38,182 bases of DNA. Source: Chloroflexota bacterium. GTDB taxonomy: Bacteria; Chloroflexota; Anaerolineae; Caldilineales; Caldilineaceae. Of the stretch, positions 1,671 to 28,568 are shown one piece after another. The stretch's first letter is position 1. Every line of letters begins with the position of its first letter. The position numbers and the translations under genes are program-made. The notes beneath the pieces were generated by a model, which worked only from the letters and a program-made list of their open reading frames with translations, did no database searches and had not been told where the DNA came from. Location: contig QEUW01000043.1 in NCBI GenBank assembly GCA_003577005.1, positions 1-38,182 of the forward strand, read 5' to 3'.

Positions 1671-1671
1671 A

Positions 1672-6138: not shown

Positions 6139-6927
6139 ATGACGCAGACTCCTGTAGTTAGTGTATTTATGACGGTCTACAACGGGGAACGGTATCTAAC
6201 AGAAGCTATCGCGAGCATTCAACAACAGACGTTGCAAGATTTCGAGCTTATCATTGTGAATGACGGCTCAACTGATCGCACCCAGGAGATTTTATTTGTG
6301 GCTCAGACCGACCCCCGAATCAAAGTCGTTTCCACGCCACGTCTAGGTCGAGCACGAGCGCTCAACATAGCTTGGCGGGAAACCCGCGGTAAATACGTGG
6401 CGAATCTGGACGCCGATGATCGCTCTGAACCTATGCGACTCGAAAAACAAGTCGCTTTTCTAGAACGACACCCGGAAGTTGGCATGCTTAGCACTGACAG
6501 TATATTGTATTATGAGGATACAGGTGAACAGAAAGAAGCGCGGTTACCATGCACTAGTGCCGAACTGAGGCATGAACTTGTGCGATACTGTCGTATCGTC
6601 CATAGCTCAGTAATGATGTCTCGGCACGCCTTACAAGACGTTGGGGGATATAACGAGGCTTTTCGTGTGGCAATAGACCATGAATTGTGGGTACGTATCG
6701 CCAGACGGTTTGAATTAGCCAACTTACCCCACATATTGACCGTGCGACGTATGCACCGGCAGCGCTACTTCCGCAATGAAATCACCACCTGGGATCGTAT
6801 CCTGGCTGTGATGAAAGTGCGTAGCCGTGCCTGGTGGAGCTTCTCTCGAGAAATACCAGAGTTACGATTCGTAGTGATTGACCCAATTGTGAAGTTTTCC
6901 TACAGGGGTCTGAGATTTGGGCGTTAA
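6139..6927 (+). CDS. Family 2 glycosyltransferase
   Basis: 262-aa GT-A fold enzyme and first gene of the plus-strand EPS arm. It begins MTQTPVVSVFMTVYNGERYL, then IASIQQQTLQDFELIIVNDG (residues about 24-43), STDRT, and NLDADDRSEP near residues 93-102 with the metal-binding DxDD. HSSVMMSRHALQDVGGYNE and DHELWVRIARR in the second half are typical of GT2 EPS transferases. The start is supported by AGGAAAAG a few bases upstream. The sugar is unknown. A strong inverted-repeat structure follows its stop codon before the next gene. Confidence 0.92.
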   Translation: MTQTPVVSVFMTVYNGERYLTEAIASIQQQTLQDFELIIVNDGSTDRTQEILFVAQTDPRIKVVSTPRLGRARALNIAWRETRGKYVANLDADDRSEPMRLEKQVAFLERHPEVGMLSTDSILYYEDTGEQKEARLPCTSAELRHELVRYCRIVHSSVMMSRHALQDVGGYNEAFRVAIDHELWVRIARRFELANLPHILTVRRMHRQRYFRNEITTWDRILAVMKVRSRAWWSFSREIPELRFVVIDPIVKFSYRGLRFGR

Positions 6928-6945
6928 GAGCGCCCGCCGCGAACT

Positions 6946-7051
6946 GACTGGCCACGCCCACAGAGACCGCTGAAGCGGCTCGCCCTGATACTTCGGTACA
7001 CCGGGCTGCTATTCCATCTTGTCCCTTGCTTCAGCGCTGGGCGGGTCAGTC
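6946..7051 (+). other. Candidate structured RNA or hairpin element between GT2 and sulfotransferase genes
   Basis: Nested complementary segments are present. GACTGGCCACGCCCA (6946-6960) pairs with TGGGCGGGTCAGTC (7038-7051) with one mismatch and one bulge. CGCTGAAGC (6968-6976) pairs exactly with GCTTCAGCG (7028-7036). At the tip TAC-TTCG-GTA (6989-6998) forms a C(UUCG)G tetraloop. A second CTGAAGC at 7057-7063 could compete for 7028-7034. Whether it acts as an RNA (attenuator, processing site) or is a mobile palindromic element is unknown. Confidence 0.5.
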
Positions 7052-7129
7052 TGGCACTGAAGCAGCCATTCTGTCCGGGAAGGAGAACCGTCTCTCAATG
7101 AGGCAAGTAGAGAGGTTAAGTAACCGATC

Positions 7130-7882
7130 ATGGACTCTACAAAGTTTACTGTTCTGAGTACACAGCGTAGCGGATCGACATGGTTAATCGACATCCTCAA
7201 CAAGCTAAATAACACCACCGTATACGGTGAACTCTTTTTACCGCAGGAGCGCATGTGGGATGCGGGTTCAATAGACTATCCGCGATTTGTTCAAGCCCCA
7301 GTCCAAAGACACGTTATCCGCCCTATTTCAGTTTTCTCTTACCTGAACACACTCTACAGCAGACCAGGAGCGGTTGGCTTTAAACTGATGTATTCCCAGC
7401 TACGAATCTATCCTGAGATCCTGGTCTATTTGCGTGTGCAGAACATTAAGACTATCCACCTTGTCCGCAAAAACCACCTGAATGTGCTTATCTCCAAAAA
7501 ACTGGTCCAGTCAAGAGGCCAGTTTCATGTACTTATCAATCAAGAAAACGAAGAGCAAGAAAATGAAGATGTGCAGAAAGTTTATCTGGAGCCAGAGAAG
7601 CTTATTCCAGAAATGACTAGGATGGCTCGGAGGATCAACTTGGTAGGTTCTATCTTACGTATGCTTCGTATTCCTCACTATGAGGTGATCTATGAAGAGT
7701 TAGCGGCTAACAAAGGCTGTTTTGAACCCATTCTTCGTTTCCTTAAGCTGGATTCGGAGGGTGTAGTGCCCCAGTCAAGTCTGCGGAAGATCGCCAACAA
7801 ACGGCACATTGATCTCATCAGTAACTACAATGAGGTAAAACGTGCACTTGCCACTTCAGAATTTCGTGACTTAATTGAGTAG
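7130..7882 (+). CDS. Sulfotransferase (PAPS-dependent, carbohydrate type)
   Basis: 250 aa. Such enzymes transfer sulfate from 3'-phosphoadenosine-5'-phosphosulfate (PAPS) to a hydroxyl, here probably on a polysaccharide precursor. The N-terminal STQRSGSTWLIDIL (residues 9-22) is the 5'-phosphosulfate loop. IHLVRKNHLNVLISKKL (about residues 108-124) corresponds to the 3'-phosphate-binding Arg region of the family. The rest resembles Stf0/NodH-like bacterial sulfotransferases. No signal peptide is seen, so action is cytoplasmic. Its coding DNA is visibly AT-richer than that of the metabolic genes at the right end (42% GC in one hand-counted 60-base line against 60% in one metK line). The next gene starts 7 bases after its stop. 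Acceptor unknown. Confidence 0.85.
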   Translation: MDSTKFTVLSTQRSGSTWLIDILNKLNNTTVYGELFLPQERMWDAGSIDYPRFVQAPVQRHVIRPISVFSYLNTLYSRPGAVGFKLMYSQLRIYPEILVYLRVQNIKTIHLVRKNHLNVLISKKLVQSRGQFHVLINQENEEQENEDVQKVYLEPEKLIPEMTRMARRINLVGSILRMLRIPHYEVIYEELAANKGCFEPILRFLKLDSEGVVPQSSLRKIANKRHIDLISNYNEVKRALATSEFRDLIE

Positions 7883-7889
7883 CGATCAT

Positions 7890-8996
7890 ATGGCTCAAGC
7901 AAAGCGTTTTGCAATTTTTCTACCAGATATGATAGGGGCTGGAGCTCAACGCGTTATGCTAAACCTAGCCAATGGCATGGCTGCGCGCAATTTCGCAATT
8001 GATCTGGTCTTAGTACAAGCAAAAGGCCCCTATTTAGAGCACGTATCTAAATCGGTGCGGATAATAGACTTAAAAGCCCCGCGCGTTTTGGCCAGCTTAC
8101 CGGCTTTGGTTCATTACCTACGTCATGAACGCCCCTGGGCAATGCTCTCTGGATTAGGTTCGGCGAACTGTGTGGCGCTCTGGGCACGACAGTTGGCAGG
8201 TAGTAATACACGTTTAGTGATTAGCGAGCATAACACACTTTCGATACACGCCGAACGCCCTCCGAACTGGCGGGCAAGACAGATGCCTAGGTTGGCTCGA
8301 TACTTTTACTCTTGGGCTGATGCTATTATTGCAGTCTCAAAGGGCGTAGCCGAAGATTTAGCGGCGGTTGCAAGGATACCACGTCAACGTATACAGGTGA
8401 TCTACAATCCGGTAATTACACCGGAGATGCGAGCAAAAGCCGCACTTCCTTTGGTACATGCCTGGTTTCAACCTGATCAACCCCCTGTAATTCTGGGGAT
8501 TGGGCGATTGACCCAACAGAAAGATTTTGCTACTCTCATTGAGGCATTTGCCCTTGTACGTAGTACTCGCAGGGTCCGGCTTGTGATCTTGGGGGACGGT
8601 GAAGAACGTCAGCGGCTAGAAGCTCTGGTTCAGCAATTGGAGATAGATCACGATGTTTGGATGCCGGGATTTGTAGAAAACCCTTACGCATTCATGACTC
8701 AGACTGACCTGTTTGTGTTATCATCCAAGTGGGAGGGCCTGCCTACCGTGTTGATTGAGGCCCTCTACTGTGGTTCCAAACTTGTGGCTACAGATTGTCC
8801 GAGTGGGCCACGCGAAATTTTGGCAAATGGGAAGTATGGCAAATTGGTACCCGTAGGCGATACCGCCGCACTGGCTCAGGCGATAGAGCACACATTGTTA
8901 AGCGAAGCCCCTAAACCTTGCAGCGAGAGTTGGTCAGCTTTTGAGCTAGAGACAGTACTCGATCAGTATCTTCAGGTACTATTGGACAGCCACTGA
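7890..8996 (+). CDS. Family 4 glycosyltransferase
   Basis: GT-B fold retaining glycosyltransferase, 368 aa from the ATG at 7890; an upstream TTG at 7875 would overlap the preceding stop and is less likely. The N-terminal Rossmann domain includes FLPDMIGAGAQRVMLNLANG (residues about 11-30). The C-terminal domain contains ILGIGRLTQQKDFATLIEAF and the nucleotide-sugar binding EX7E motif, EGLPTVLIEALYCG. These are typical of hexose or hexosamine transferases in capsule and O-antigen loci. The 3' end overlaps the polymerase gene by one base (TGATG), which implies translational coupling. Donor sugar not predictable. Confidence 0.92.
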   Translation: MAQAKRFAIFLPDMIGAGAQRVMLNLANGMAARNFAIDLVLVQAKGPYLEHVSKSVRIIDLKAPRVLASLPALVHYLRHERPWAMLSGLGSANCVALWARQLAGSNTRLVISEHNTLSIHAERPPNWRARQMPRLARYFYSWADAIIAVSKGVAEDLAAVARIPRQRIQVIYNPVITPEMRAKAALPLVHAWFQPDQPPVILGIGRLTQQKDFATLIEAFALVRSTRRVRLVILGDGEERQRLEALVQQLEIDHDVWMPGFVENPYAFMTQTDLFVLSSKWEGLPTVLIEALYCGSKLVATDCPSGPREILANGKYGKLVPVGDTAALAQAIEHTLLSEAPKPCSESWSAFELETVLDQYLQVLLDSH

Positions 8997-10237
8997 TGCG
9001 AACTTTGGTATTCCTCCTATCTCTCGTTCTGATTTTCACGATCCCCTGGGAGAATAGCATCGTCGTGGGCGATCTAGGCTCTATCTCCAGAGCGATAGGC
9101 CTGCTAGTCATGGGGGGGTGGATTTTAGCCGTCGCAGTGACAGACAAAATTCGTCAAATCCGTCCATTTCACTTGCTAGTGGCGCTTTTTGTGCTGTGGA
9201 ACGTGGCTAGTGTCTTGTGGAGCGTAGACATTGACGGGACACTAGTGCGTATTGGAACGTACTTTCAGAATGCACTTATGGTTTTAATCATCTGGGACAT
9301 TTATACTACACCAGCGACCTTAAGAGCTGGACTCCAGATCTACGTGGTTGGGGCGAGTGTATCGATTGTTGGTCTGGTGTTAAACTTCTTATCTCTTGAC
9401 TATGCAGGCTACCGCCGTTTTTCAGCCGCTAATCTCGATCCTAACGATTTGGGTATGAGATTGGTGATTGGGATAGTGATCGCCTGGTACCTTATCATTT
9501 CTACCACCAACTATCGCAGAACATGGATGCTATCTCTTTTCAATTATATTTATGTTGCTATAGGAATATTCGCTGTCATTCTTACAGCCAGCCGGACGGC
9601 ATTCGTTGGCCTGCTCCTGGCAAGCCTATATATTGTCCTCTCGTTTTCACAGTTTAAATTTATAACTCGAATCGTGTCATATTTCGCCTTGATTGGGATC
9701 CTGGTAATTTTGCTGTCTCTTGTTCCTCAATCATCCTGGGAGCGTCTAGGAGAGACCCAAGCTTCAATTTCTCAAGGAAACCTGACAGGGCGCGTTGATA
9801 TATGGACTGAAGGGTTGGTGCTCTTTGCCGAGCATCCCATTCTTGGCGTAGGCAGTGGTGCATTTCGTGCCGCGATTACGCTGAATCAGCCGCCTCACAA
9901 TGTGTTTATCTCTACTTTAACAGAAACTGGTATGATTGGATTGTTCTTGTTTGTTATGACGCTTGCTGCATCAGTTTACCAGATTCGGTTTCTCCCCAGA
10001 TTGGAAGCAAGATTGTGGCTGTTTCTCTTCCTGACTTGGGTCATAGGGGCGAGCACCTTGAATTGGGAGTACAAAAAGCACACGTGGCTGATCCTGAACC
10101 TAATTGTTGTGGCATCGGCCACAGTTACACAGGATTCTTTAATACAACGAAGTACCCAGTTTGGGAGCGTAGTCCCCCTTCCACGATGGAGTGACATCAC
10201 GAGCCGACATATTCAGCAGACAGTATCAGAAACGTGA
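8996..10237 (+). CDS. O-antigen ligase/polymerase (Wzy-like) membrane protein
   Basis: 413 aa with about ten or more hydrophobic segments and a large loop, the architecture of Wzy/WaaL proteins. The Wzy_C core is recognisable: LTASRTAFVGLLLASLY, then a soluble loop with GRVDIWTEGLVLFAEHPILG, VGSGAFRAA, and PPHNVFISTLTETGMIGLF. An earlier NLDPNDLGMRL is also typical. It would polymerise repeat units flipped by the Wzx protein encoded on the other arm. Start overlaps the stop of the GT4 gene. A polymerase role rather than ligase is inferred from locus content, since no lipid A core genes are present. Confidence 0.88.
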   Translation: MRTLVFLLSLVLIFTIPWENSIVVGDLGSISRAIGLLVMGGWILAVAVTDKIRQIRPFHLLVALFVLWNVASVLWSVDIDGTLVRIGTYFQNALMVLIIWDIYTTPATLRAGLQIYVVGASVSIVGLVLNFLSLDYAGYRRFSAANLDPNDLGMRLVIGIVIAWYLIISTTNYRRTWMLSLFNYIYVAIGIFAVILTASRTAFVGLLLASLYIVLSFSQFKFITRIVSYFALIGILVILLSLVPQSSWERLGETQASISQGNLTGRVDIWTEGLVLFAEHPILGVGSGAFRAAITLNQPPHNVFISTLTETGMIGLFLFVMTLAASVYQIRFLPRLEARLWLFLFLTWVIGASTLNWEYKKHTWLILNLIVVASATVTQDSLIQRSTQFGSVVPLPRWSDITSRHIQQTVSET

Positions 10238-10603
10238 TGGTTCCCATGATTACCACCAGTGTCCTCCCCCTAAAGCTTACCTTCACCCACGAGTCGGCGC
10301 CAGGGCGAGAAGGCGTACCCCGCGTGTGTGTTACCTAGCGAGACGCCTGGATGAACGGCTGGAACGCCGGCAGTACACGCACGGTCTCGCTCCTACACTG
10401 GTAAGCCACTGGGTGGGGCCGCTAAACCCACATCATGTGAAAGTGCCAGTTCCGCTGCCGCGCCCAGCTTTTTTCTGACTTGAGTTTTGTCAACCGCGAC
10501 GATGCCTTTCGTCCTTAGCGATCTTGGACAGCGAACGTGGACGCTGCCCAAATTGGAAAAGAATATTGACGATTGGATCCCTTTGAGAGAAAGAATCATT
10601 GTT
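10238..10603. other. Intergenic region with several inverted repeats, no clear gene
   Basis: No protein homology recognised in any frame. AGCGAGAC (10337-10344) pairs with GTCTCGCT (10384-10391). CGTGTGTGTTAC (10323-10334) is nearly complementary to GTACACGCACG (10373-10383). GTGGG (10413-10417) pairs with CCCAC (10427-10431). The first two pairings cross each other and so are probably alternatives. The DNA is GC-richer than its flanks. An in-frame open extension of the downstream GT4 gene reaches back to 10487 but has no family resemblance. Confidence 0.45.
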
Positions 10604-11734
10604 ATGAGTAGAGCCGAGCCGATTCAGCAATGTGAGGCACCAACCCTCTTGGTTGTTGGCCCCTTGCCACCTCCATTTGGAGGTACCACCGTAAGTTTTG
10701 AGGTTTTCTGTCAAGAAGTCACAGATCAACGCGCTGGCATATCTTTAGAAGTCGTAGACTCCTCACCTAAGAAGCTGAAGAAGCAACACGCAATCGTTTC
10801 CCAAGCGAATTTTTTTCAGGCTTGCCGAATTATGTGGCAGTTCTGTTGGCGTGTAAGGGCCGCAGATGTGGTGTTGATTTTCGGTTCTAATGGATTTCTG
10901 CTTGCTATGACACCTTTTCTGCTTACCCTTGCAAAGATAATGCACAAACCATGCTACATCCGTTCTTTTGGTGGCTCGTTAGATAACTTCTATTGCAACT
11001 TGAACTTGGGACTGCGCTGGGTACTACGTACGACCTTACGTCACGCAGATGGCCTGATTGTTGAAACTGAGTTACTACAAAGGTACTTCCGCGCGCTAGT
11101 AGGGGACCGGGTTCATCTAGTTCCTGGCTACCGGATTATGCCTGCAATTCATGTTGCGCGTTCGGATTGGCGCCTCCGGCCGGAGGCGCCGTTACGGTTG
11201 CTCTTTGTGGGACATGTTCGTGAAGAAAAAGGGCTGTTTGAATTGCTCAAGAGCCTGCAATTGATTAGCGCAGAGGGGAATATAACTGTCAAGTGTGACA
11301 TTTTTGGACCGATCTATGCCGCAATTGAAGAACGTTTCAATGATGAGCTTGCTCGCACTGAAAATGCTCATTATGGTGGTATTTTAAAACCGGACGACGT
11401 TGTGTCTACCATGGCACAGTATGATGCGCTCGTGTTCCCCACGTACTACCAAGGAGAGGGCCATCCAGGCGTGTTGATCGAAGCGATGATGGCCGGCATC
11501 CCGGTGATTTCCACCAACTTCCGCTCCATTCCTGAGCTAATTGAAGATGGAATCAACGGGCTGTTGGTTGATCCCAAAGACGCCGACCAACTGGCTGAAG
11601 CAATTCTGCGAATCTACCAGAATCGCTCGTTACAGCTCGAAATGGGTAGGCACAATGCAGAGAAGTCTGTACAGTATGACGCGCGCAGGGTGGTTCCACG
11701 CATGTTGCAGCTGGTAAACCTTTGTGTGGAGTAG
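10604..11734 (+). CDS. Family 4 glycosyltransferase
   Basis: 376 aa from the ATG at 10604, chosen because family similarity begins only at LLVVGPLPPPFGGTTVSFEV and GAGAGAAAG precedes the ATG. In-frame starts as far back as 10487 cannot be excluded. The C-terminal domain shows LRLLFVGHVREEKGLFELL and the EX7E motif EGHPGVLIEAMMAGIPVIST. The GPLPPPFGG opening is common in EPS GT4 enzymes. A perfect 22-bp palindrome lies within the gene at 11169-11190. Substrate unknown; part of the plus EPS arm. Confidence 0.9.
   Translation: MSRAEPIQQCEAPTLLVVGPLPPPFGGTTVSFEVFCQEVTDQRAGISLEVVDSSPKKLKKQHAIVSQANFFQACRIMWQFCWRVRAADVVLIFGSNGFLLAMTPFLLTLAKIMHKPCYIRSFGGSLDNFYCNLNLGLRWVLRTTLRHADGLIVETELLQRYFRALVGDRVHLVPGYRIMPAIHVARSDWRLRPEAPLRLLFVGHVREEKGLFELLKSLQLISAEGNITVKCDIFGPIYAAIEERFNDELARTENAHYGGILKPDDVVSTMAQYDALVFPTYYQGEGHPGVLIEAMMAGIPVISTNFRSIPELIEDGINGLLVDPKDADQLAEAILRIYQNRSLQLEMGRHNAEKSVQYDARRVVPRMLQLVNLCVE
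11169..11190. repeat. Perfect 22-bp palindrome inside a coding region
   Basis: Self-complementary sequence centred between 11179 and 11180; each half is GGCGCCTCCGG or its complement. It encodes part of a loop just before the GT4 C-terminal domain (WRLRPEAP). Confidence 0.8.
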
Positions 11735-11786
11735 ACGAATGAAAACCGTTGGTCGAACAGAGACCGTAACGTAAGGATATGCAGCA

Positions 11787-12761
11787 ATGGCTGAGAACAG
11801 AAATTTTATCTATATTGTCGGGCGCGGTCACAGTGGTAGCACCCTGCTGGCCGGCCTGCTTGGTCATGCCGACGATGTGGAAAGTGTGGGTGAATTGGTC
11901 TATCCTATGACTAAACTGTGTAGCTGTGGGCAACCGTTTGCCAGATGCGAGTTTTGGCAACAGGTCCGCGTCTATTTCGAGCAAGAATCGGGTCTTGGCT
12001 GGGAAGAGAGCATGAAGCTGATTCAGCAGCAGGCTCACATTCTCCAGTTCCCTCGCACGATGACCATGCGCAAATCTTCATCGACCGTACAAGAAATGAT
12101 CAAAATCAACCGGTCTCTGGCCGCAGCCATCGGTCATGTCGCCGGAAGAGGGCAGATTTTGGATGCATCTAAGCAACCTTCGCGCGCGCTCTTCTTGATC
12201 CGCCATCTACCGGAAACGAAGTTCATCCACATTGTCAGACAACCCGAAGAGTATTTGGCATCCTACTATTACCGGATCAAGCAGGGGGGGGTAAACTTCT
12301 TCCGGCGTGAATACCGGAGTGGTCCATTGGATATCGTCTTCCTGGCCGCCGTTGCGTTGAGTTGGACCGTAGCGAATTTGGCGGTCGAACTCATTCGTCT
12401 GCGCTACCCTGGGCGCGTGGTGCGCGTTCGTTACGAGGACCTTTGCAGAAATCCCAAAGCTGAACTCCTGCGCTTACAGTCGTTTCTTAAGCTTGATTTG
12501 AGTTCCGTAATCAAGGCTGTTGAGCAAAGAGAGACCATGCGGATCGGCCATATCGTGGGGGGCAATGCACACATGCGCTCGGGGGATGGCTTTGTCTTTG
12601 AGCCCAAGCTGGGGGTACGCCGTCCTATATCGGGAATTCACAAGATCATGGTGCAGCTCTTGTCGTGGCCATTGATGCTGCTATATAAGTACTCTCTGTT
12701 TGGTAGCACCGATGTCCTGCCATCTACTGTGGGCACGGCGGTGGACTCCAAAACCACATGA
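11787..12761 (+). CDS. Sulfotransferase family protein (second)
   Basis: 324 aa. The 5'-phosphosulfate loop is GRGHSGSTLLAGLLG (residues about 13-27). IHIVRQPEEYLASYYYRIKQ (about residues 151-170) matches the 3'-phosphate-binding Arg/Ser region. VRYEDLCRNPKAELLRLQSF near residue 215 is the conserved 'yEdL..dP...l..l..FL' element. CSCGQPFARCEFW after the first motif is a Cys pattern shared by a subgroup of these enzymes. It is only distantly like the sulfotransferase at 7130, so the two probably modify different positions or sugars. AAGGA about ten bases before the ATG supports the start. No signal peptide. Confidence 0.88.
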   Translation: MAENRNFIYIVGRGHSGSTLLAGLLGHADDVESVGELVYPMTKLCSCGQPFARCEFWQQVRVYFEQESGLGWEESMKLIQQQAHILQFPRTMTMRKSSSTVQEMIKINRSLAAAIGHVAGRGQILDASKQPSRALFLIRHLPETKFIHIVRQPEEYLASYYYRIKQGGVNFFRREYRSGPLDIVFLAAVALSWTVANLAVELIRLRYPGRVVRVRYEDLCRNPKAELLRLQSFLKLDLSSVIKAVEQRETMRIGHIVGGNAHMRSGDGFVFEPKLGVRRPISGIHKIMVQLLSWPLMLLYKYSLFGSTDVLPSTVGTAVDSKTT

Positions 12762-12829
12762 GGTTGACTCAGACCCTTCAGGTTCGCTTCAACCGATTGA
12801 TGAGCTTCGAATCTCTAAACTGCGGTTGC

Positions 12830-12884: not shown

Positions 12885-12963
12885 CAGAGCAAAGTATATA
12901 AGGGTACCGTGGATCAAACTGGACAGGGTATTGTGCAACAAGAATGGGTTCATTAGGATCCAA

Positions 12964-16146: not shown

Positions 16147-16154
16147 AACAAACA

Positions 16155-19135: not shown

Positions 19136-20659
19136 TCAAGAACTGGCTCTCTTGGTCGAGAGACGGGGAACCGTCACCGCAGCAAATAAGTGAAGCAGTT
19201 CCATGATAAGTGCTCGACGTATCAAAAATGCGACACCGATGTAAATGATACCACCGAGCATGACCAATCCGCTAACAAAGACGAAGTCGGGTTGGCCAAG
19301 CATCATGTGACGCAAAGGTTGCTTTGCTGAAAATACCCCGAAGATCATTGCCGTGCCGGCCACGACAGCGGGAAGGATAGCGGGGACAACTTTGTGCGCC
19401 GTTCCAGGTAATAGTTGGTGGATTTGATAAATGTTGTAGATAAATCCGCAAATGTATGAGACAGTAACCGCAAGCGCCACTCCCTCGATGCCGTAAGGGA
19501 GCCACAGAAAGACCAAAGGCACCATCGTTACGGTTACTACCAATCCAACGCGCAAGTCAAACTCCGGCCGCCCGACTGCGCGGAACAGCGGTGAGGTTGT
19601 ACTTGCCATAGGGCGCACCAGAGCCATCAGTGTAAAAATCTGTAGCGTAGGGATCATCGGTATCCACTTCTCCCCCAGCAGCGTTGGGACCAGCTCTTGG
19701 GCAATGGCAAAGGTGCCCATCGCCAACGGGGCCATAATCAGGGCAGAGACGGCTATCCCCTTGATATATGCCCTTGACAGTCGCTCTGGATCGTCCTGAA
19801 TCTTGCGCAACGAAGGGAAGAGTACCGCACTGATAACTGTCGTGTTGATCCCACCGAGAATCCCGCGGGTGAGGCCGTAAGCTTTATCGTAAAAGCCAAG
19901 CGCCGTTGACCCTAGCACTCTGCCGACGAGCCAGTCGTCCCAGTTCGAGTTAAAGAAATTCATAAATCCGCCGCCCGTGCTCTTGAGCCCGTATTGCAGT
20001 AAGTCGCGTGCGACGCTCCAGTTCCAGGGTCGGGGAGTAAGCCAATCCCATCCTGGGCAGGTAAACCAAATGACAACCAACTGGGTGAAAGCACCGGCCA
20101 GCTTGCCGTAGACTAGACTCCATAGCCCAAAGCCGAAGAGAGCCAGAAACACGGCCACGACACTGTCCACGGCGTTAGAAATCAACATTGCCTTGCTGAT
20201 TTGGCCAAACTTCAACTCCTTTTTCAGGAGAGCCTCAGGCACCAAGGACAATCCATCGAGCACGATCAGCAGCGAAAGACCATGTAAAATAGGCGTGATG
20301 GTGGAGTTGCCCAAGAAGTTGGCAAAGAGGAGCGGTTGAACATTGACCAGGGTGAAGAAGGAGAGACTCGTAAACATACAAATTACAAATGCAGGGAATG
20401 CCACTTGATCACTGCCGAGCCTACTGTAAATGACCGACGATGTCATTCCCAAGTCTGTAAACAGCCGGGCTGTAGAAAACACAAGCATTGCCAACGCAAC
20501 AACGCCAAAGTCGCGTGGGTCAAGCAACCGTGCCAGAAAGACCATTCCGAGCATACTGACCAGGCGTACACCTATCGTGGCCACAGCCATGTAGATGCTG
20601 CTGAGTGCGGCCTGATTTTTTAAGTTCTGATTTGCAGGTTCAGCGGCCGGTGGCTTCAT
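19136..20659 (-). CDS. Wzx-like oligosaccharide flippase
   Basis: 507 aa from the ATG at 20657-20659. Longer readings upstream lie inside the asparagine-synthase-like gene and are rejected. The protein has 12-14 hydrophobic segments and the RfbX/MOP flippase pattern: LARLLDPRDFGVVALAMLVF near the N-terminus, LTDLGMTSSVIYSR-like text, GLWSLVYGKL, and LGSTALGFYDKAYGLTR in the middle. It would move undecaprenyl-linked repeat units across the membrane for the Wzy polymerase. Its ATG overlaps the stop of the upstream gene (ATGA), so the two are translationally coupled. It precedes wzz/BYK by 56 bases. Confidence 0.92.
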   Translation of the reverse strand: MKPPAAEPANQNLKNQAALSSIYMAVATIGVRLVSMLGMVFLARLLDPRDFGVVALAMLVFSTARLFTDLGMTSSVIYSRLGSDQVAFPAFVICMFTSLSFFTLVNVQPLLFANFLGNSTITPILHGLSLLIVLDGLSLVPEALLKKELKFGQISKAMLISNAVDSVVAVFLALFGFGLWSLVYGKLAGAFTQLVVIWFTCPGWDWLTPRPWNWSVARDLLQYGLKSTGGGFMNFFNSNWDDWLVGRVLGSTALGFYDKAYGLTRGILGGINTTVISAVLFPSLRKIQDDPERLSRAYIKGIAVSALIMAPLAMGTFAIAQELVPTLLGEKWIPMIPTLQIFTLMALVRPMASTTSPLFRAVGRPEFDLRVGLVVTVTMVPLVFLWLPYGIEGVALAVTVSYICGFIYNIYQIHQLLPGTAHKVVPAILPAVVAGTAMIFGVFSAKQPLRHMMLGQPDFVFVSGLVMLGGIIYIGVAFLIRRALIMELLHLFAAVTVPRLSTKRASS

Positions 20660-22506
20660 ATAGCAAACTGCTTTCTCCAGAGCGCAAATGTGACAATCGC
20701 GCAGATCTTTTGATAGTCGTTGCGTTTTCCTTCCCAATGATCTGCGACCAGACTGTCAACCTTTTCTACATTGAAGTAATCTTCCAGTAGTTCCTTTTGG
20801 TTCAGAATCTGCGCCACATACGACCGCGAACCGGTCCTAAGCCACTGATTGAAATCGAACGATGCTCTTTCATTGGGGAAGCTCAGCTTGGCCAAGTTTA
20901 GTCTTGAGAATAGCTGCTTGTTGAGACGCTTCTTTATGCGTACACTCAACTGCTGAAACCTGATATGGCGAGGCGAAGCATTCAATGGCAGCCCTGTTTT
21001 TGAATAAGGAACTGATGCAACCTGGGGCAGATGTTCTACAATCATCCTCTTGTAAAACCGTTGGTCAATCTTCAGCTCAGGCGGAACAGTGAGCGCAAAA
21101 TCTAACAATTGGTTCTCGGCAAAAGGATCTAGCACCCTCGAAAACTCTGATAGCACATTGATGTGTGTTGCAATAAAGCGTCGCTGCCGTTGGTGAAGGT
21201 CGCAATAGATCATTCGGTTGATCAGGCTACCTGTAGGGGCCGCTTCATACGTCCTACGGATGGAATTAAAGCTTTCGCCTTTTACGTTGCGGTAGATGGT
21301 GGGCTTTAGCAGCTTGGCCAGATCTTCTTCGCGAAAAATAGTTTGAAAAAAGCTTCGATGCAATACCTGTAGCGCCTGCGCCGTCGGAGCTTCTCGACAG
21401 AGGCTAGCAATCAGATTTGTGCCAGTAAGGGTGCCACCAAGAAATCCATTCATTGCATACTGAATCTTGTTCTCCTGCAAGAATGGGTCCAGGGCAAAGA
21501 TCCATGAGGTCGAACAATTGACAGAACCCTCCAAGCGCGCCACCGCCTCATCCGCGTACCTTGCCAGACAGTCTGAGCCGACGAAGAGAGCGGTATGGGT
21601 GTACCCTGCACTTTGTGCAATTGCTTTACCAGCCTCTATATCATTTGCCCCCGGCTCACCGATAGTCACCGCCCTCACACCTGAAGGTTGAACGGATTGG
21701 CTCAACACGCCGGCCAGGCAGCGAGAGTCCAGCCCGCCAGTCACCTGTAGCCCCATGTTCTCTCTGGCTTGTTTTCTGACCGCCTCCTGAACATGAAAAT
21801 AATACTGGTCCGCATAATCATCCTCACGCATAGCATTGCTTTGCTGTGAATGAAACGAATAGTCCCAGTAGCGGTGTAGCGAGACGCTTCCACTTTCGTA
21901 GGTAAGTACTGCCGCTTGTGGAATCACCTGGATACCCGCAAAAAGCGTGCGGTCATCAAGACAGTAATTTACCCCTAGAAAGTCAGCCAGGGCGACTTCA
22001 TTGATCGTTTTGTGAAAGGCAGGATGCCAGATAATGGCTTTACATTCCGACGCAAAGAGAAACTGGTCGCCGTTCATCCAATAATACAGCTTACCAAACC
22101 CGTACCGGTCATTGATGATCGTAAGCTTTTGCCCTGCATCTTCCCAGACAGCAATCACATAGATGCCATTGAGGTTGCATAAAGCACTGCATCCAAAGCG
22201 AAGATAGAGCCTCAGCAAGAGTTCGCCCAGTTTATACTGAGATGCGCTGGGGTCGCCGGCCTCCAAGAGCTTTGCACGCAGCTCCTCTCGACCATATATC
22301 TCACCAGTCGCAACAAGAATGGTGTTATCTTTTTCGGCAAAACCAACTTCATCATCAAGGGCAATGCAGCCGAAGGCAGCACGCTGCGTGACCCGTTTTT
22401 CCACCCGATACCACTCCTGGCGCCTTAACGGTTGGATCATGTTCCTGATCCAGGTCTCTAGCGTATCTTGCCGGTTTGGTGCAATGATGCCAACGACTCC
22501 AGGCAT
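20656..22506 (-). CDS. Asparagine-synthase-like amidotransferase lacking the catalytic Cys2
   Basis: 616 aa. The N-terminal Ntn-type glutaminase domain (about 1-210) shows GEIYGREEL, NDRYGFGKLYYW and FASECKAI, all typical of AsnB. The synthetase domain has the PP-loop variant TGGLDS at 256-261 (consensus SGGxDS). AsnB proteins start Met-Cys-Gly, where Cys is the glutaminase nucleophile. Here the start is MPGVVGIIAP, Pro at position 2. The start is fixed by AGGAG 5 bases upstream. Glutamine-dependent ammonia release should be lost; ATP-dependent amide formation could still use free ammonia or another partner. In EPS loci such proteins are thought to amidate uronic acids, which would fit the AlgD-like gene. 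Overlaps wzx by 4 bases. Confidence 0.87.
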   Translation of the reverse strand: MPGVVGIIAPNRQDTLETWIRNMIQPLRRQEWYRVEKRVTQRAAFGCIALDDEVGFAEKDNTILVATGEIYGREELRAKLLEAGDPSASQYKLGELLLRLYLRFGCSALCNLNGIYVIAVWEDAGQKLTIINDRYGFGKLYYWMNGDQFLFASECKAIIWHPAFHKTINEVALADFLGVNYCLDDRTLFAGIQVIPQAAVLTYESGSVSLHRYWDYSFHSQQSNAMREDDYADQYYFHVQEAVRKQARENMGLQVTGGLDSRCLAGVLSQSVQPSGVRAVTIGEPGANDIEAGKAIAQSAGYTHTALFVGSDCLARYADEAVARLEGSVNCSTSWIFALDPFLQENKIQYAMNGFLGGTLTGTNLIASLCREAPTAQALQVLHRSFFQTIFREEDLAKLLKPTIYRNVKGESFNSIRRTYEAAPTGSLINRMIYCDLHQRQRRFIATHINVLSEFSRVLDPFAENQLLDFALTVPPELKIDQRFYKRMIVEHLPQVASVPYSKTGLPLNASPRHIRFQQLSVRIKKRLNKQLFSRLNLAKLSFPNERASFDFNQWLRTGSRSYVAQILNQKELLEDYFNVEKVDSLVADHWEGKRNDYQKICAIVTFALWRKQFAI

Positions 22507-22761: not shown

Positions 22762-25626
22762 CTAAGAATTGCGTCGAATGACGGGCAAGTAAATCTGGTG
22801 GTCAGTTTGGGAGAAGTTAGCGGTGATCGTCGCATTGTCCGTCACCGTATACTCGATGGGGTTCTCGTCACCAGAGAGGTCACCGCTCCAGCCTGTGAAT
22901 TCCCAGCCAGCCTCTGGAGTAGCTGTCAAAGTCACCACCTGCCCGGGGGTATAGGGGCCGGGCGGGTCAACCGCAACGGCGCCCTGGCCGGTCTGTTCGA
23001 TTGTGAGCGCAAATTGCTGCTCCTGGCTGAAGGTGGCCGTCACAACCGCACCCATATCAAACGTAAAGCTAACCGGATTGGTTGCTCCGGTCACTGCCCC
23101 GCTCCAGCCGGCAAAGGACCAGCTATCCTCCGGCGTCGCAGTCAACGTAATCCGTTCTCCACACGTGTATGACTCTTGAGCGGGAACCCTTGCCACTGCC
23201 CCCGAACCAACCGTGTTGACTGTGAGCGAGTAAGGTTTCGAGTCTTCTGGTACAATCGGCGCGGCGGTGTTGAAGAAGTAGTCAACAATTGCCGTATGCG
23301 CCGGGAAGGCGCCCGCATTGCCCGCATAGACACCTACTGTGCCGGTGGTGAGCGTATGGGTAAAGCTCACACTCTCAGTCCAGTCTGTGCCGTCAAACGA
23401 GTATGACTGGGTCCACTGATTGCCAGCCCGTTCGACGCGCATGTACATGTCCGTGCCAAAGGGGGTAATCACTTGATTGATGCGCACGGTCGGGGTCGGT
23501 GTACTACTGCTCAGGATTGCGGCAAAGATGCGCACATCGGTCCCATCTGAGTAGAATTCAAAGCGTAGGAGATTGTTATCATCCTGTTCGACCACGATCC
23601 CCTGCATCTGGAAGCGCCGGTTGATCTCCGACTCAAACTTTGCCTCGACGACAAAATTCGTACTCGTTACCGGTTGGGTCATGCGTGGCGCAAAGTTCTT
23701 ATCCCTCCACAGGTCGTGGTCGGTGCCGGCCGGCACCGAGATCAGAAGTCGCCTGCCGGTCACTTCAAATGTGCTGTCGCCCTGCGGGTCGCGGAAGGTC
23801 CATAGATTATCGTTTAAGGCGCACTGATTGAAATCATCCGAATAAGGTGCCTGAGCCTGAACAAAGAGCGCCCCCACCGTCAGGTTGTCGTTGATGATGA
23901 CTTCCTGTGGATTTGTCTTCCCAAAAAGATCGCCGGTCCAGTTGGAGAGCATATACCCGGGATTAGGCACTGCGGTAAAGGTAAGGCGCTCTCCAAAAGC
24001 GTAGCCCTGTTTGTTCGGGTCAACCAGCACGCTTCCATTCTCAGAGGCGCTGATAGTCACCACGGGAGCGGGAGCTGAGCCAAAGGTTGCTGTTATTTCC
24101 GTATCTTGTGTGATGTTGAACTTGAGCGGATTTGCGGTACCCGAAACTGCGCCGCTCCAGCCCATCAGTTTTTGTCCGGTCTCGCCCACCGCAACAATTG
24201 TAACCTCTTGACCATAGCTGTAACTGGGCTGACTCGGAGTAATCTGTACTGCACCACCGCCCACGACGTTTACTGCCAGCTTGGGCGCAATGGCAGAGAG
24301 CGGCGTGACCGTCACTTTGCCGAAACTGGCGTCGACATGATGCGCCACTAGCAGCAATGAGCCAGTCGGCGGCTCACTCGAGCGCCCCGGTGTTTCCATG
24401 TCCCACCCAAACGGTTCGGGATCACTGGCCTTCCAGACCTTGAAGCGATAGTACGAGCGGTTGCTGGCGATAGCCTGAACGCTCATCTTCATGAGATAAG
24501 GGACTCCAAACTCAGGCTGTTTGTTGGCGTTGGCAGTCAGTTCGCCGCCACCCGTACCGACCATTTGCAGACCGCTGGAAATCTCCCCCGATGATCGCTT
24601 CCACCGGAACCAACCCAGCGCACCGAGCTGCTGCCAGCCGTTGTTTGGCTGTTCGCCCGCTTCGTTGTAGTGGCCTTGCCAGCGCAGCAAAACGCCAACA
24701 CCTGGCCCATTGCTTGGCGACTTGAACCCTTCCTCGTCGATACCGTGGATCACCAACGGCACCACCACCTCGTAATCCTTCCAACTGACATCGCCAATTG
24801 CCACAAGGCGATCATAGCCGAGCTCGACCGGGCGCAGGTTTGCTCCTTGCAGTGCCCACTTGCCATCCACCACATCGGCAAGCTGTTGGATGTTTGTAGC
24901 AGTGCCCCAATCGGCCTCATAGGATGCTGGCCAGGTGCGCCCCGCCACATAGTTGACTGTCACCGTCTGTACTGCCTGGTTAGTGAGCACATCGGTGGCT
25001 GTGATCACGATCTGATTCGAGCCAGAAATGAGCAGCGTCGTGCTAATTTCCGCATTAAAATCGCCAGCGGCCCCCAATCGTCTTGTGTTGGGGCCGAGCG
25101 AGAGCGGCTGCGGCGCACCACCGTTGAGCGAAAAGACGACCGAACTGACTGCATTGGAGCTGGTGATCTTCCCCAAAACACCCACAACTTTGGCTGGATT
25201 GCCGATATGACCAAAGGACTGGGTGCTACCGTACCAGACATCGATGACGGGCGCATTGACTGCGCTGGCGCTCGCCGGTTCGTCCACCTGACCACCGGCT
25301 TGCCCCCCTCCGGCATAGACCACATTGAGGGCTGGGCTGCCAACCGAAAGCAGGGGAAACTCACCTCCCAGAGCGGCAGCGTCTACCTCTGCTTCATCAT
25401 CGGTAGCCACTGGCAGCGTGTGCCAGGGCGGGTCTTCCTCTGTTCCACTGCTGGTCTGCGAAGCCGCTTGCAACGTATCCTCGTTGTTAACCTCATTTGT
25501 CGCCACACGCGCTGACACAGCTGCTGTATGGCGGCTCACACTCACCAACCCTGCGGTGAAAAGAACCAGCAGTGACAGCAGAAAGATCATGCTGTTGCGT
25601 AGAAAGGAAGATTGTCTTTGGCTCAT
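22762..25626 (-). CDS. Large secreted protein with InlB-type repeats and LamG/DUF1349-like domains
   Basis: 954 aa. The signal peptide is clear: basic SQRQSSFLRN then IFLLSLLVLFTAGLVSV (about 13-30). Next come a low-complexity segment, a cadherin/Ig-like strand region (VIDVWYGSTQSFGHIGNPAK, about 125-230), a beta-sandwich-like domain (about 235-450), two divergent InlB B-repeats (about 450-595; GWSGAVSGTANP and NWTGDLFGKTNP), a DUF1349-like concanavalin domain starting DDFNQCALNDNLW (about 595-795), and two more InlB repeats (about 797-940; GWSGAVTGATNP and GWSGDLSGDENP). The C-terminus is HQIYLPVIRRNS. Probably a cell-surface adhesion or carbohydrate-binding protein. It lies inside the minus EPS arm, so it may bind or organise the polymer. 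No catalytic site seen. Confidence 0.85.
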   Translation of the reverse strand: MSQRQSSFLRNSMIFLLSLLVLFTAGLVSVSRHTAAVSARVATNEVNNEDTLQAASQTSSGTEEDPPWHTLPVATDDEAEVDAAALGGEFPLLSVGSPALNVVYAGGGQAGGQVDEPASASAVNAPVIDVWYGSTQSFGHIGNPAKVVGVLGKITSSNAVSSVVFSLNGGAPQPLSLGPNTRRLGAAGDFNAEISTTLLISGSNQIVITATDVLTNQAVQTVTVNYVAGRTWPASYEADWGTATNIQQLADVVDGKWALQGANLRPVELGYDRLVAIGDVSWKDYEVVVPLVIHGIDEEGFKSPSNGPGVGVLLRWQGHYNEAGEQPNNGWQQLGALGWFRWKRSSGEISSGLQMVGTGGGELTANANKQPEFGVPYLMKMSVQAIASNRSYYRFKVWKASDPEPFGWDMETPGRSSEPPTGSLLLVAHHVDASFGKVTVTPLSAIAPKLAVNVVGGGAVQITPSQPSYSYGQEVTIVAVGETGQKLMGWSGAVSGTANPLKFNITQDTEITATFGSAPAPVVTISASENGSVLVDPNKQGYAFGERLTFTAVPNPGYMLSNWTGDLFGKTNPQEVIINDNLTVGALFVQAQAPYSDDFNQCALNDNLWTFRDPQGDSTFEVTGRRLLISVPAGTDHDLWRDKNFAPRMTQPVTSTNFVVEAKFESEINRRFQMQGIVVEQDDNNLLRFEFYSDGTDVRIFAAILSSSTPTPTVRINQVITPFGTDMYMRVERAGNQWTQSYSFDGTDWTESVSFTHTLTTGTVGVYAGNAGAFPAHTAIVDYFFNTAAPIVPEDSKPYSLTVNTVGSGAVARVPAQESYTCGERITLTATPEDSWSFAGWSGAVTGATNPVSFTFDMGAVVTATFSQEQQFALTIEQTGQGAVAVDPPGPYTPGQVVTLTATPEAGWEFTGWSGDLSGDENPIEYTVTDNATITANFSQTDHQIYLPVIRRNS

Positions 25627-25652
25627 CTCTTTGTTCCCGTTTCTCCAAAGCA

Positions 25653-25835: not shown

Positions 25836-27338
25836 TTATGTGCCCTTGAACTGGATGACGGTACTCACCGTCCGGAATAGTATATATAAATCGAGCCATA
25901 GTGACCAGTAGCGCACATAGTAAAAATCATACTCCAGTTTCGTGCGTGCATCTTCGACACTGTTGCCATATTCATAGTTGATCTGCGCCCAACCGGTCAG
26001 CCCTGGTTTTACTGTCAACCGTGTCCGGTAGAAGGGGATCTCCTGTTCCAGCTTGGCAACGAACTCCGGGCGCTCTGGTCGTGGCCCGACAAAACTCATC
26101 TCCCCACTCAATATATTCAAGACCTGCGGCAGTTCATCCAGCCGGGTCTTGCGCAAAAAGCGGCCCACGCGCGTGATGCGTGCGTCATCTTTGCTAGCCC
26201 AACGAGCTTCGCCGTTCTGCTCGGCATTGACTACCATGGTGCGAAATTTGAAAATGGCGAACGGTTTTCCTCCACGCCCACAGCGGATTTGCCGGTAGAA
26301 GATGGAGCCGGGAGAGTCCAGACGGATGGCGAGAGCGAGCAAAGGCAGGATAAGAAGAAAGGCTGGAAAGGCGAGAACACATAACAGCAGGTCACATAGA
26401 CGCTTGGCGCTCTGTTGTAGGCGGCTGAAGATGGGCTTCTCTTGCATAGCGTGCAATCCCCAAGCCGGGTCTATATGTTCGATAGGAATCTTGCGGCAGA
26501 CCTTCTCGAATAAATCAGGCATCCACACAACTGCAACGCCATTGGCCTGGCATTCAACCAACAGATGAAAAAGATCGGTTTCCAGACTGCGTTCGATAGC
26601 AACCACAACCTGGTGAACGCGCTGTTCCCGCACCAAGCGCAACAGATCTGCCGCTTTGCCCAACACAGGCAATCCGCCCAGGTGTCTCCCAGCATCACTC
26701 TCGCTTGCTTCACCACCATCGCAATCAGCCAAATAGCCCAGCACCGTGTAATTTAGATGGCGCTCTTGCTGTAGCACTTGCGCTATCGCCTGCCCCCGTT
26801 TTCCCTGCCCCAAGATCAGGATACGGTGGGAAAAAGGGCGATAGATGTTGGAAAGCAAGGTGTAAGCATATCGCCATAAGGCGATCGCAGGCACAGCCAA
26901 TGCAAAGAAGTAGATCGATATCAGTTGGGATACCTGTACCTGGAACACCCACCAGGCCAGGTAAGACATGAGCAACCCCAGAACGCCGGCAGTTAATACC
27001 CGCTTTGCACTCAGATTTGCATCGTGCGCCGATGGAATGTGATAAAGGTCATTGAACCACGCCACCCCCCACCAGGCGCTAATCAGGAGAGGGAACCAAT
27101 ACCAATATGTAGCCACGATCGCCGTGTTCACGACGTCGTCGCTCGTCTGCCCCAGGAGGCGGATGGCTCCCCATGTCGCGCCAAAGATGAGCAATGCATC
27201 CATCACCATCAGCAGCGTCTTGCGCTCTGAAAACGGTGCCTGGAACCCCTGTAAGTCTGGCACAAGCAGCCTTTTAAGCTTGAGAGGGGCATCTTTGAAA
27301 CCGGCATTGAGTACCTCACTGTTGGCTCTGATTGACAT
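25836..27338 (-). CDS. Undecaprenyl-phosphate sugar-1-phosphate transferase (WbaP/CpsE type)
   Basis: 500 aa polyisoprenyl-phosphate phosphoglycosyltransferase that starts the repeat unit by loading a sugar-1-phosphate on the lipid carrier. It has four to five N-terminal membrane segments (residues about 40-165), a Rossmann-like CoA-binding domain with RILILGQGKRGQAIAQVLQQ (about 170-190), another membrane hairpin near 320-340, and the catalytic Bac_transf domain: FAIFKFRTMVVNAEQNGE, then RLDELPQVLNILSGEMSFVG, PRPERPEF, and KPGLTGWAQINYEYGNS. Ends ...STVIQFKGT as usual in the family. CAGGAG 8 bases before the ATG supports the start. It lies 27 bases after the methyltransferase gene. The sugar (Glc or Gal most often) is not predictable. 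Confidence 0.93.
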   Translation of the reverse strand: MSIRANSEVLNAGFKDAPLKLKRLLVPDLQGFQAPFSERKTLLMVMDALLIFGATWGAIRLLGQTSDDVVNTAIVATYWYWFPLLISAWWGVAWFNDLYHIPSAHDANLSAKRVLTAGVLGLLMSYLAWWVFQVQVSQLISIYFFALAVPAIALWRYAYTLLSNIYRPFSHRILILGQGKRGQAIAQVLQQERHLNYTVLGYLADCDGGEASESDAGRHLGGLPVLGKAADLLRLVREQRVHQVVVAIERSLETDLFHLLVECQANGVAVVWMPDLFEKVCRKIPIEHIDPAWGLHAMQEKPIFSRLQQSAKRLCDLLLCVLAFPAFLLILPLLALAIRLDSPGSIFYRQIRCGRGGKPFAIFKFRTMVVNAEQNGEARWASKDDARITRVGRFLRKTRLDELPQVLNILSGEMSFVGPRPERPEFVAKLEQEIPFYRTRLTVKPGLTGWAQINYEYGNSVEDARTKLEYDFYYVRYWSLWLDLYILFRTVSTVIQFKGT

Positions 27339-27365
27339 ACAGTTACTCCTGATGTGGCAAAGGGA

Positions 27366-28568
27366 TTAGGGTTCCAATGGCAGGAGTTGTGGGTGCAACC
27401 CCATCAATTCAAGCGTCTGTTGTATTTCATTACAGTAGAGTGGATTCATCACGATTACAATGTCTGGACAAATGGCGGTCAACGCATCCGGCCCGACAAT
27501 CTCTTGCCCGGTGCCCGCCATAAAGGTGCCGTGCCGGTAAGGGTTCACATCGACCGCATGGGTGATCACATCAGAACCGGCGAGCGTGGTCAAAAACGCC
27601 ACACCCTTGGAACCGGAACCCCAGATGACCACGCGCTTCCCCTGCAGCCGGAAGTCTTGCAGCTTGCTCTCCCACTGCCGTAAGACGGTGGGATAGGCTG
27701 CGACAAATGCACCAACCTTGCGCTTGATTTCGGCAATTGCCCGATTCGCCCTGGCGCCGGCGCCTGCCGGCGTCGTCGGCGCTGGTCGCGCCTCGATAGT
27801 GAGATATTGCTCGCCGTATTGTGTCGCCACGTCCAACACCTCAAAGCCGCACTGTTCGAATAGGTAGGCTAGCGATCCGACACTAAAATAGGAACAGTGC
27901 TCGTAATAGATATCCCAGAAAGCCACATCGCGCATGACATACTCGCCATTGGGCACCTGGAAAAAGACGATTGTCTCTCGGCGGTCGCCAATCGAGCGTC
28001 GCACAGTGCGTACAAACTCTGCTGTGTTTGGGATGTGTTCAAGCGTCATTTTGCAGCAGATAAAATCACCCTGCACTTCGCTATATTTCTCTGAATAAAA
28101 ATCCTGGACAAACTGAACCTGTGTCGGGTCGAAGCGGCGCGGGCGAGTGGGGTCGTAGGCCGGGTCAAACCCAACGCCCTGGTTGTTGCCTAGTTCGCAG
28201 AGCAGGATCAAAAATTCGCCCTGGCCACAGCCAATTTCGATAAGATGTTTGTTGCGGAGTTGATACCGGTCAATTAGTTGTTGCGCCAGTTGCGTGTGGA
28301 AGGTATTAAAGGTTGGGGAGTAACTCTGGGTCGCCTCATAACCCACCGCATATTCGTGTACCGATGAGTCAAAGGCTACATTGCTGATGAAACCGCAGGT
28401 ACCACAGAGGGCCAAACGGATCGCCCCGCGCCGATAGGTCACCGCCCGTTCGCGGGTCGGCATCAGCAGGACGCTATGGACGGGAACTCCCATTACTTCA
28501 TAAAAGACACTCAGCGAGTGAGTCCCACAATTAGGACACGGATCTGTATAGAACGGACGCACAATCAT
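27366..28568 (-). CDS. C-methyltransferase-like SAM-dependent methyltransferase
   Basis: 400 aa from the ATG at 28566-28568; in-frame starts at 28610 and 28628 are possible but add no conserved sequence. The N-terminal zinc-binding domain has C11-x2-C14 (CPNC) and C55-x2-C58 (CGTC). The SAM-binding domain contains HLIEIGCGQGEFLILL (about 127-142), and the C-terminal domain has KRVVIWGSGSKGVAFL. This three-part layout (Methyltransf_13, Methyltransf_23 and Methyltransf_14) belongs to the NovU/TylCIII sugar C-methyltransferase family. It probably methylates a nucleotide-linked deoxysugar or acts on an EPS precursor. First gene of the minus arm. A TATATATA just upstream on the minus strand could be part of a promoter. 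Confidence 0.87.
   Translation of the reverse strand: MIVRPFYTDPCPNCGTHSLSVFYEVMGVPVHSVLLMPTRERAVTYRRGAIRLALCGTCGFISNVAFDSSVHEYAVGYEATQSYSPTFNTFHTQLAQQLIDRYQLRNKHLIEIGCGQGEFLILLCELGNNQGVGFDPAYDPTRPRRFDPTQVQFVQDFYSEKYSEVQGDFICCKMTLEHIPNTAEFVRTVRRSIGDRRETIVFFQVPNGEYVMRDVAFWDIYYEHCSYFSVGSLAYLFEQCGFEVLDVATQYGEQYLTIEARPAPTTPAGAGARANRAIAEIKRKVGAFVAAYPTVLRQWESKLQDFRLQGKRVVIWGSGSKGVAFLTTLAGSDVITHAVDVNPYRHGTFMAGTGQEIVGPDALTAICPDIVIVMNPLYCNEIQQTLELMGLHPQLLPLEP

Follow-up and report, generated by a model that had tools for sequence, protein, structure and literature searches.

So far, sulfated bacterial polysaccharides have been regarded as almost confined to cyanobacteria. The xss (synechan) locus is found on pSYSM of Synechocystis sp. 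PCC 6803, and its product was reported to be sulfated (PMC8205485). According to the accessible part of that paper, no other bacterial cluster was known to have an arrangement with two sulfotransferases (PMC8205485). In a 2026 paper, the two-sulfotransferase arrangement was proposed for actinomycetes on the example of wps-1 from Actinoplanes missouriensis, and as far as the main text of that paper goes, a two-sulfotransferase Wzx/Wzy architecture is already described outside the cyanobacteria (PMC13390465). In this report, we describe a locus in a stretch of 38,182 nucleotides from a Chloroflexota bacterium (GenBank assembly GCA_003577005.1, contig QEUW01000043.1, positions 1 to 38,182), which is referred to in its entirety as the window. 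The 15 genes at positions 6139-28568 would probably direct the synthesis, by the Wzx/Wzy route, of a sulfated, mannuronate-bearing heteropolysaccharide that is either bound to the cell surface or released.

Like xss, as described in the accessible text, this locus combines Wzx, Wzy, a co-polymerase, and an initiating phosphoglycosyltransferase (PHPT) with several glycosyltransferases (GTs) and two sulfotransferases of distinct subfamilies (PMC8205485). The genes that carry the argument are as follows.

7130..7882, plus strand: ST1, a Stf0-like sulfotransferase (from relatives, a PDB profile match, and the predicted fold)
8996..10237, plus strand: Wzy polymerase with an O-antigen ligase domain (PF04932, 73 bits, cut-off 32; 10 transmembrane-like segments)
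11787..12761, plus strand: ST2, a sulfotransferase of the Sulfotransfer_3 family (PF13469, 59 bits, cut-off 27; PF00685, 34 bits, cut-off 22)
12931..14829, plus strand: heparinase II/III-type protein (PF07940, 184 bits; PF16889, 107 bits)
14826..16142, plus strand: AlgD-type GDP-mannose 6-dehydrogenase (1mfz, 523 bits; next 3vtf, UDP-glucose type, 274 bits)
17433..19079, minus strand: Wzz/bacterial tyrosine kinase (BY-kinase) co-polymerase (TIGR01007, 162 bits, cut-off 108)
19136..20659, minus strand: Wzx flippase (PF13440, 245 bits, cut-off 23)
20656..22506, minus strand: asparagine-synthetase-like ligase (PF00733, 65 bits; PF13537, 64 bits)
25836..27338, minus strand: PHPT (TIGR03025, 412 bits, cut-off 296)

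The components expected of a Wzx/Wzy-dependent locus (PHPT, Wzx, Wzy, and a Wzz-type co-polymerase) were all found above their cut-offs, and PF02706 was passed as well (32 bits, cut-off 25.5). A first-pass annotation of the sequence had named the complete module, an AlgD-type dehydrogenase, a heparinase II/III-type protein, two sulfotransferases, and four GTs, and domain searches placed each of these families where it had put them; the four GTs are one GT2 and three GT4 enzymes in the plus arm. Its "WbaP-type" label for the initiator proved too specific. Only TIGR03025 was passed, and the protein scored below both the WcaJ model (345 bits, cut-off 411) and the more distant WbaP model (250 bits, cut-off 403). 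Its interpretation is supported in part, namely for the Wzx/Wzy module, the mannuronate-precursor enzyme, and the polysaccharide-linked sulfotransferase families. The Wzz/BY-kinase fusion retains its Walker A motif; one tyrosine is present in the last 60 residues, where the C-terminal tyrosine cluster that is usual for BY-kinases was not found. No OPX/Wza exporter was found among the window open reading frames (ORFs) scanned. The Chloroflexota are generally held to be monoderm, and a missing Wza would be unremarkable if this cell is monoderm as well.

ST2 was assigned from Pfam scores above the cut-offs. ST1 lies under every Pfam and NCBIfam cut-off (PF13469, 17.6 bits, cut-off 27; PF09037, 15.9 bits, cut-off 22; NF047724, 18.7 bits, cut-off 400) and was assigned by other means. 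The P-loop sequence RSGST was found at residue 13, and Glu34 is invariant in 29 aligned relatives. A PDB profile search matched a chain named "LPS sulfotransferase NodH" with an E value of 3.5e-9. When the predicted fold was used for structure comparison, sulfotransferases filled the first 19 Foldseek rows and the first 21 VIA rows, and the nearest in fold was trehalose sulfotransferase. As modeled, ST1 has the sulfotransferase fold together with the P-loop for 3'-phosphoadenosine 5'-phosphosulfate (PAPS). The Stf0-like ST1 and the Sulfotransfer_3 enzyme ST2 are thus members of different subfamilies inside one Wzx/Wzy locus.

The neighborhoods of their relatives support a tie between the two sulfotransferase families and polysaccharide loci. 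The 18 ST1-family loci (3.4-20.7 kb) come from Chloroflexi, cyanobacteria, actinobacteria-type, proteobacterial, and Bacteroidota-type records. Measured against 20 random regions that are from Anaerolineae genomes only, 3 of them short (3.8-6.7 kb), GTs were found in 18/18 of these loci versus 1/20 (Fisher p = 1e-9), genes for Wzx, Wzy, PHPT, or a co-polymerase (PCP) in 11/18 versus 0/20 (p = 3e-5), and a further sulfotransferase in 9/18 versus 0/20 (p = 3e-4). The gene models used for these counts, and for the ST2-family and AlgD locus counts given below, were seeded partly from L001, L004, L005, L011, L081, L082, L088, L092, L093, and L096 in addition to the window. When the four model-seeding loci were removed, the corresponding counts were 14/14, 7/14, and 6/14 (p = 1e-8, 6e-4, and 2e-3). 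For ST2, counted as one locus per genome in 20 genomes of the class, GTs were found in 14 loci and core genes in 9, with no GT in 6. Both families are sparse, with ST1 relatives in 16 of 396 genomes (E <= 1e-15) and ST2 relatives in 20 (E <= 1e-20). For the ST1 relative P0120 and the ST2 relative P0005, the longest contig has the same length of 5978 bases, so the two may lie on one contig. No match was obtained for plasmid relatives of ST1.

Some of these results weigh against a sulfated product: the scores of ST1 under all of the curated cut-offs, its structural proximity to trehalose sulfotransferase, and the 6 of 20 ST2-family loci that lack a GT; moreover, the acceptors of sulfotransferases are not readable from sequence. 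They would fit an acidic Wzx/Wzy polysaccharide that carries uronate only, with sulfotransferase-family proteins that are inactive or that act on a glycolipid, a protein, or a small sugar. We regard this explanation as unlikely. The ST1 gene overlaps an adjacent GT4 gene (GT4a) by 8 bp, and the GT4a gene in turn overlaps wzy by 1 bp. The P-loop and Glu34 are kept across the ST1 family, whose loci all contain GTs and in 9 of 18 cases a second sulfotransferase. Judged from relatives, the supply of PAPS would be compatible with sulfation of the polymer. Of the 20 genomes closest by MetK, 18 have adenosine 5'-phosphosulfate (APS) kinase (one match being weak; G333 and G378 lack it), as do 6/6 tested genomes with an ST1 relative, which account for six of the 18 ST1 loci. 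The presence of APS kinase in relatives removes an objection but does not prove sulfation, because the enzyme was also found in 11 of 14 control genomes.

The closest solved dehydrogenase to the AlgD-type enzyme is Pseudomonas AlgD (1mfz), and the catalytic residues K210, N214, and C268 are kept. A UDP-glucose dehydrogenase was considered and rejected on the scores of 274 bits (3vtf) versus 523 bits for the GDP-mannose type. The enzyme is of the GDP-mannose dehydrogenase type and therefore points to a uronate (mannuronate) precursor. Its gene is overlapped by 4 bp by that of the heparinase-type protein, which retains N213, Y266, and H376, the catalytic Asn/Tyr/His of a heparinase II/III (PL12-like) lyase. 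The same residues are kept in 10/10 full-length relatives aligned; an eleventh relative is truncated. AlgD-like proteins were found in 21 of 396 genomes (E <= 1e-120). Within 22 AlgD loci, a heparinase-type gene directly adjoins algD in 6 (not independent pairs, since L159, L160, and L161 look alike) and lies within the examined stretch in 7, and a sulfotransferase was detected in only 3. On these counts, a partnership of the heparinase-type protein with the AlgD product is a better explanation than one with sulfation. No hydrophobic N-terminal segment was found in the protein, which we infer to be a cytoplasmic lyase that would act on lipid-linked repeats.

The asparagine-synthetase-like ligase begins with MPGVVGI. 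Cys2, the nucleophile of the glutaminase domain in glutamine-dependent asparagine synthetase, is absent, and the PP-loop TGGLDS is kept. Starts of MPG or MSG were also found in proteins of five further loci (L141, of which L119 is a duplicate, L092, L072, L074, and L075), three more distant relatives start with MCG, and L155 is without a readable start. In L141, two Cys2-less ligases flank an AlgD that is 62% identical to that of the window. The Cys2-less ligases of L072, L074, and L075, which are loci retrieved as ST1 matches, lie within 1.5 kb of the ST1-like gene. As a separate observation, a Cys2-less asparagine-synthetase-like subfamily adjoins AlgD or ST1-like genes in the Anaerolineae. 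A literature search on the pairing of heparinase and asparagine synthase in polysaccharide loci returned a single paper, on another subject. It is plausible that the ligase joins the carboxyl group of a uronate to an amine other than glutamine-derived ammonia.

The remaining genes of the locus, and two that lie outside of it, are as follows.

6139..6927, plus strand: GT2 glycosyltransferase (PF00535, 112 bits, cut-off 23)
7875..8996, plus strand: GT4a glycosyltransferase (PF00534, 121 bits)
10487..11734, plus strand: GT4b glycosyltransferase (PF00534, 99 bits)
16155..17354, plus strand: GT4c glycosyltransferase (PF13692, 85 bits)
22762..25626, minus strand: secreted InlB-repeat/ConA-like surface protein (PF18998, 154 bits; PF17851, 36 bits)
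27366..28568, minus strand: sugar methyltransferase with a C-methyltransferase-type C-terminal domain (PF13489, 79 bits; PF08484, 44 bits; ATG at 28568)
1653..2576, plus strand: further GT2, outside 6139-28568 and possibly belonging to the locus (PF00535, 113 bits)
2885..4744, minus strand: secreted beta-helix protein, outside 6139-28568 (PF13229, 28 bits, cut-off 26)

The pathway that we propose for the sulfated heteropolysaccharide, with its acceptors, order of steps, and polymer composition drawn from the gene content, is the following. The phosphoglycosyltransferase would start the repeat unit on undecaprenyl phosphate. Its extension would be the work of four or five GTs, one of which would use the GDP-mannuronate from the AlgD-type enzyme to add mannuronate. 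In the cytoplasm, ST1 and ST2 would transfer sulfate from PAPS to the lipid-linked repeat. The methyltransferase would place a methyl group on a sugar. Wzx would then flip the unit, Wzy would polymerize it, and the Wzz/BY-kinase protein would set the chain length. The heparinase-type protein is predicted to be a lyase that is directed at uronate and linked to the product of the AlgD-type enzyme, which it probably trims or proofreads. The polymer may be kept at the cell surface by the two secreted proteins, one with InlB repeats and one with a beta-helix. A more elaborate version with a polymer not yet described, in which the uronate carboxyls of the sulfated mannuronate heteropolysaccharide are partly capped as amides by the Cys2-less ligase (through carboxyl adenylation and a non-glutamine amine) and an apparently cytoplasmic heparinase-type lyase proofreads the lipid-linked repeats, is in our judgment very unlikely to hold in all its parts.

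The two secreted proteins in or beside the locus could instead be carriers. The glycan would then be attached to a surface protein or to a lipid, as in an S-layer glycan or a capsule-like anchor, with the InlB-repeat or beta-helix protein as a candidate carrier. The Wzy_C domain also covers O-antigen ligases, and no exporter was seen in the window, both of which fit such an attachment. The presence of a Wzz/BY-kinase co-polymerase alongside Wzx and a Wzy-like protein speaks for polymerization into chains, and the scan of 30 window ORFs revealed no oligosaccharyltransferase. We consider an attached glycan possible, if doubtful. The beta-helix protein was also tried as a solved epimerase or lyase, and a PDB sequence search gave no match up to an E value of 1. 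Both secreted proteins belong to a set of long, mostly signal-peptide-bearing proteins with a C-terminal tail resembling [LIV][FY]LP[LVI][VI]x[RK], which may serve in sorting or anchoring (window 2885-4744 and 22762-25626, both on the minus strand; L093:6224-8470, L095:12379-15072, L116:2396-6196, L143:5010-9128, and L144:1230-5414). The loose tail pattern was not enriched (13/1142 versus 9/1142 in internal control stretches), and a literature search on the motif gave nothing.

The 15 genes are arranged as two converging arms. The plus arm (6139-17354) contains, in order, GT2, ST1, GT4, Wzy, GT4, ST2, heparinase II/III, AlgD-type dehydrogenase, and GT4. The minus arm (28568-17433) reads methyltransferase, phosphoglycosyltransferase, InlB-repeat surface protein, asparagine-synthase-like ligase, Wzx, and Wzz/BY-kinase, and position 28568 is the ATG of the methyltransferase gene, the outermost of the arm. 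The wzx and asnB-like genes overlap by 4 bp if Wzx starts at ATG 20659; the mechanical ORF start is TTG 20737. The locus and its left flank have a GC content of 0.50-0.54, versus 0.60 for the right flank, which contains mtnA, pfkB, GNAT, AHCY, and metK. The flanking MetK is 86% identical to those of genomes of a class that includes a genome titled Anaerolineae, and named relatives of PfkB at 70-74% are from Caldilineaceae; these matches assign the organism to the Anaerolineae and agree with a Chloroflexota origin. None of the modeled locus genes was found in the MetK flanks of 6 relatives, so a conserved placement beside mtnA-MetK was rejected; the locus behaves like a variable island. The minus-strand ORF at 2446-2847 (133 aa) has a sub-threshold match to a TnpB/Cas12f-type zinc domain (18.3 bits, cut-off 26.3) and is possibly a transposon remnant at the locus edge. 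No RNA families or tRNAs were found in the window.

The island character raises the question of whether the minus assembly arm and the plus decoration arm are unrelated neighbors, that is, parts of different loci joined in a low-GC island. The GC content at third codon positions differs, at 0.46-0.51 in the first five plus-arm genes, 0.53-0.64 in the other locus genes, and 0.70-0.82 in the right flank, and both the empty MetK flanks and the mosaic character of the locus across genomes would be in keeping with a chance junction. Neither arm is complete alone, however, with Wzy and the GTs on the plus arm and PHPT, Wzx, and Wzz on the minus arm, and only 78 bp separate them. We therefore judge unrelated arms to be distinctly unlikely. 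The grouping of the genes is more than chance: in 26 control regions (the 20 random regions and the 6 MetK flanks), a single GT4 was found in one, and no other modeled gene was found in any.

The first-pass annotation had proposed a comparison of gene order in relatives; the gene combination recurs, as in an Anaerolineae locus, but the overall gene order does not. That locus, L092 of genome G406, contains a Cys2-less AsnB-like ligase, GT4s, a heparinase, a sulfotransferase (36.5 bits, cut-off 22), an AlgD (66% identical), and a Wzy (61 bits, cut-off 32). G406 is a second Anaerolineae genome, of the same order as G333, whose MetK is 84% identical. The L011 locus of the gammaproteobacterium Candidatus Litorirhabdus singularis contains a heparinase, an AlgD (56%), a GT4, three sulfotransferase-like proteins, a Wzx, and a protein resembling Wzy that falls slightly short of the cut-off (29.2 bits, cut-off 31.7); a Cys2-less ligase was not found in the 20.7 kb examined. 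In the cyanobacterial locus L004, Wzx, ST1, GT4a, and Wzy stand in this order with three further sulfotransferases after them, and its GT4a is 55% identical to that of the window. GT4a is 48-55% identical to the GT4s of the ST1-bearing loci L004, L005, L007, and L013. In G176, one of the genomes closest by MetK, the ST1 gene is flanked by those for Wzx and Wzy. A contig of 5.2 kb from Chloroflexi MAG-38 (G005; L013, which is the same as L087) carries two copies of a tandem ST1-GT4a pair, with GT4a 48% identical to that of the window.

The first-pass annotation knew of no well described sulfated polymer from the Chloroflexota, in agreement with the open-access literature, in which no description of a sulfotransferase-polysaccharide locus in Chloroflexi/Chloroflexota was found. 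In the accessible part of a Shark Bay survey, no sulfotransferase is given for its two Chloroflexi genomes (PMC9723792). The two-sulfotransferase gene logic is now found in the Anaerolineae, where it is combined with an AlgD/heparinase-type pair, and an ST1-family sulfotransferase also lies next to wzy in relatives from several phyla. If the proposed function is correct, cyanobacteria need not be the only source of the sulfated acidic polymers in mats, sludge, and sediments, and the ST1 and ST2 families would serve as a searchable marker and as enzymes for new sulfated polymers. Under the amide-capped version, judged very unlikely above, the recurrence in L092, ligase included, and in L011 would indicate a spreading pathway rather than a one-genome oddity.

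Other known systems share parts of this design. The accessible descriptions of the capsules of Vibrio sp. KMM 8419 and Cobetia marina KMM 1449 likewise place sulfotransferases and GTs in one locus, and their sulfated product was characterized; these loci differ in using an ABC-transporter route and in containing the genes for PAPS synthesis (PMC11641403, PMC11766843). The pSymB locus of Sinorhizobium (S. medicae CP140910, L098; S. meliloti 1021 NC_003078, L097) contains a relative of ST2 (29-33% identical). By its annotation, L098 also has a second sulfotransferase, Wzz-type and O-antigen-ligase-family proteins, and GT4s, as in the window; unlike the window, neither L097 nor L098 gave a match to the AlgD and heparinase models. 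Relatives of ST2 were found in 74 Sinorhizobium plasmid records. The AlgD-type GDP-mannose dehydrogenase is shared with alginate biosynthesis. Alginate is made by a synthase-dependent route (Alg8/Alg44), whereas the locus uses Wzx/Wzy, and no Alg8/Alg44 synthase domain turned up in the 30 window ORFs that were searched for domains.

The wps-1 locus, also from a Gram-positive cell, has Wzx/Wzy/Wzz, two sulfotransferases of different families, and a methyltransferase, with sulfation that is predicted (PMC13390465). Compared by description only, it differs in having a GH26-like hydrolase, and the word "heparinase" is absent from the main text of the paper (PMC13390465). The families shared with xss are PHPT, Wzx, co-polymerase, and GT. 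The ST2 profile gave a distant match to XssE (E = 1e-13 in a small set of 14 xss-region proteins, L096). In the same set, no match was found for the AlgD, heparinase, AsnB-like, and ST1 proteins of the window, so that ST1 matched neither XssA nor XssE there. By the accessible account, xss includes dedicated regulators, and the gene for its exporter lies outside the locus (PMC8205485). Judged by gene content, the locus appears to work like xss but adds an AlgD-type dehydrogenase, a heparinase-type protein, and a Cys2-less asparagine-synthetase-like ligase.

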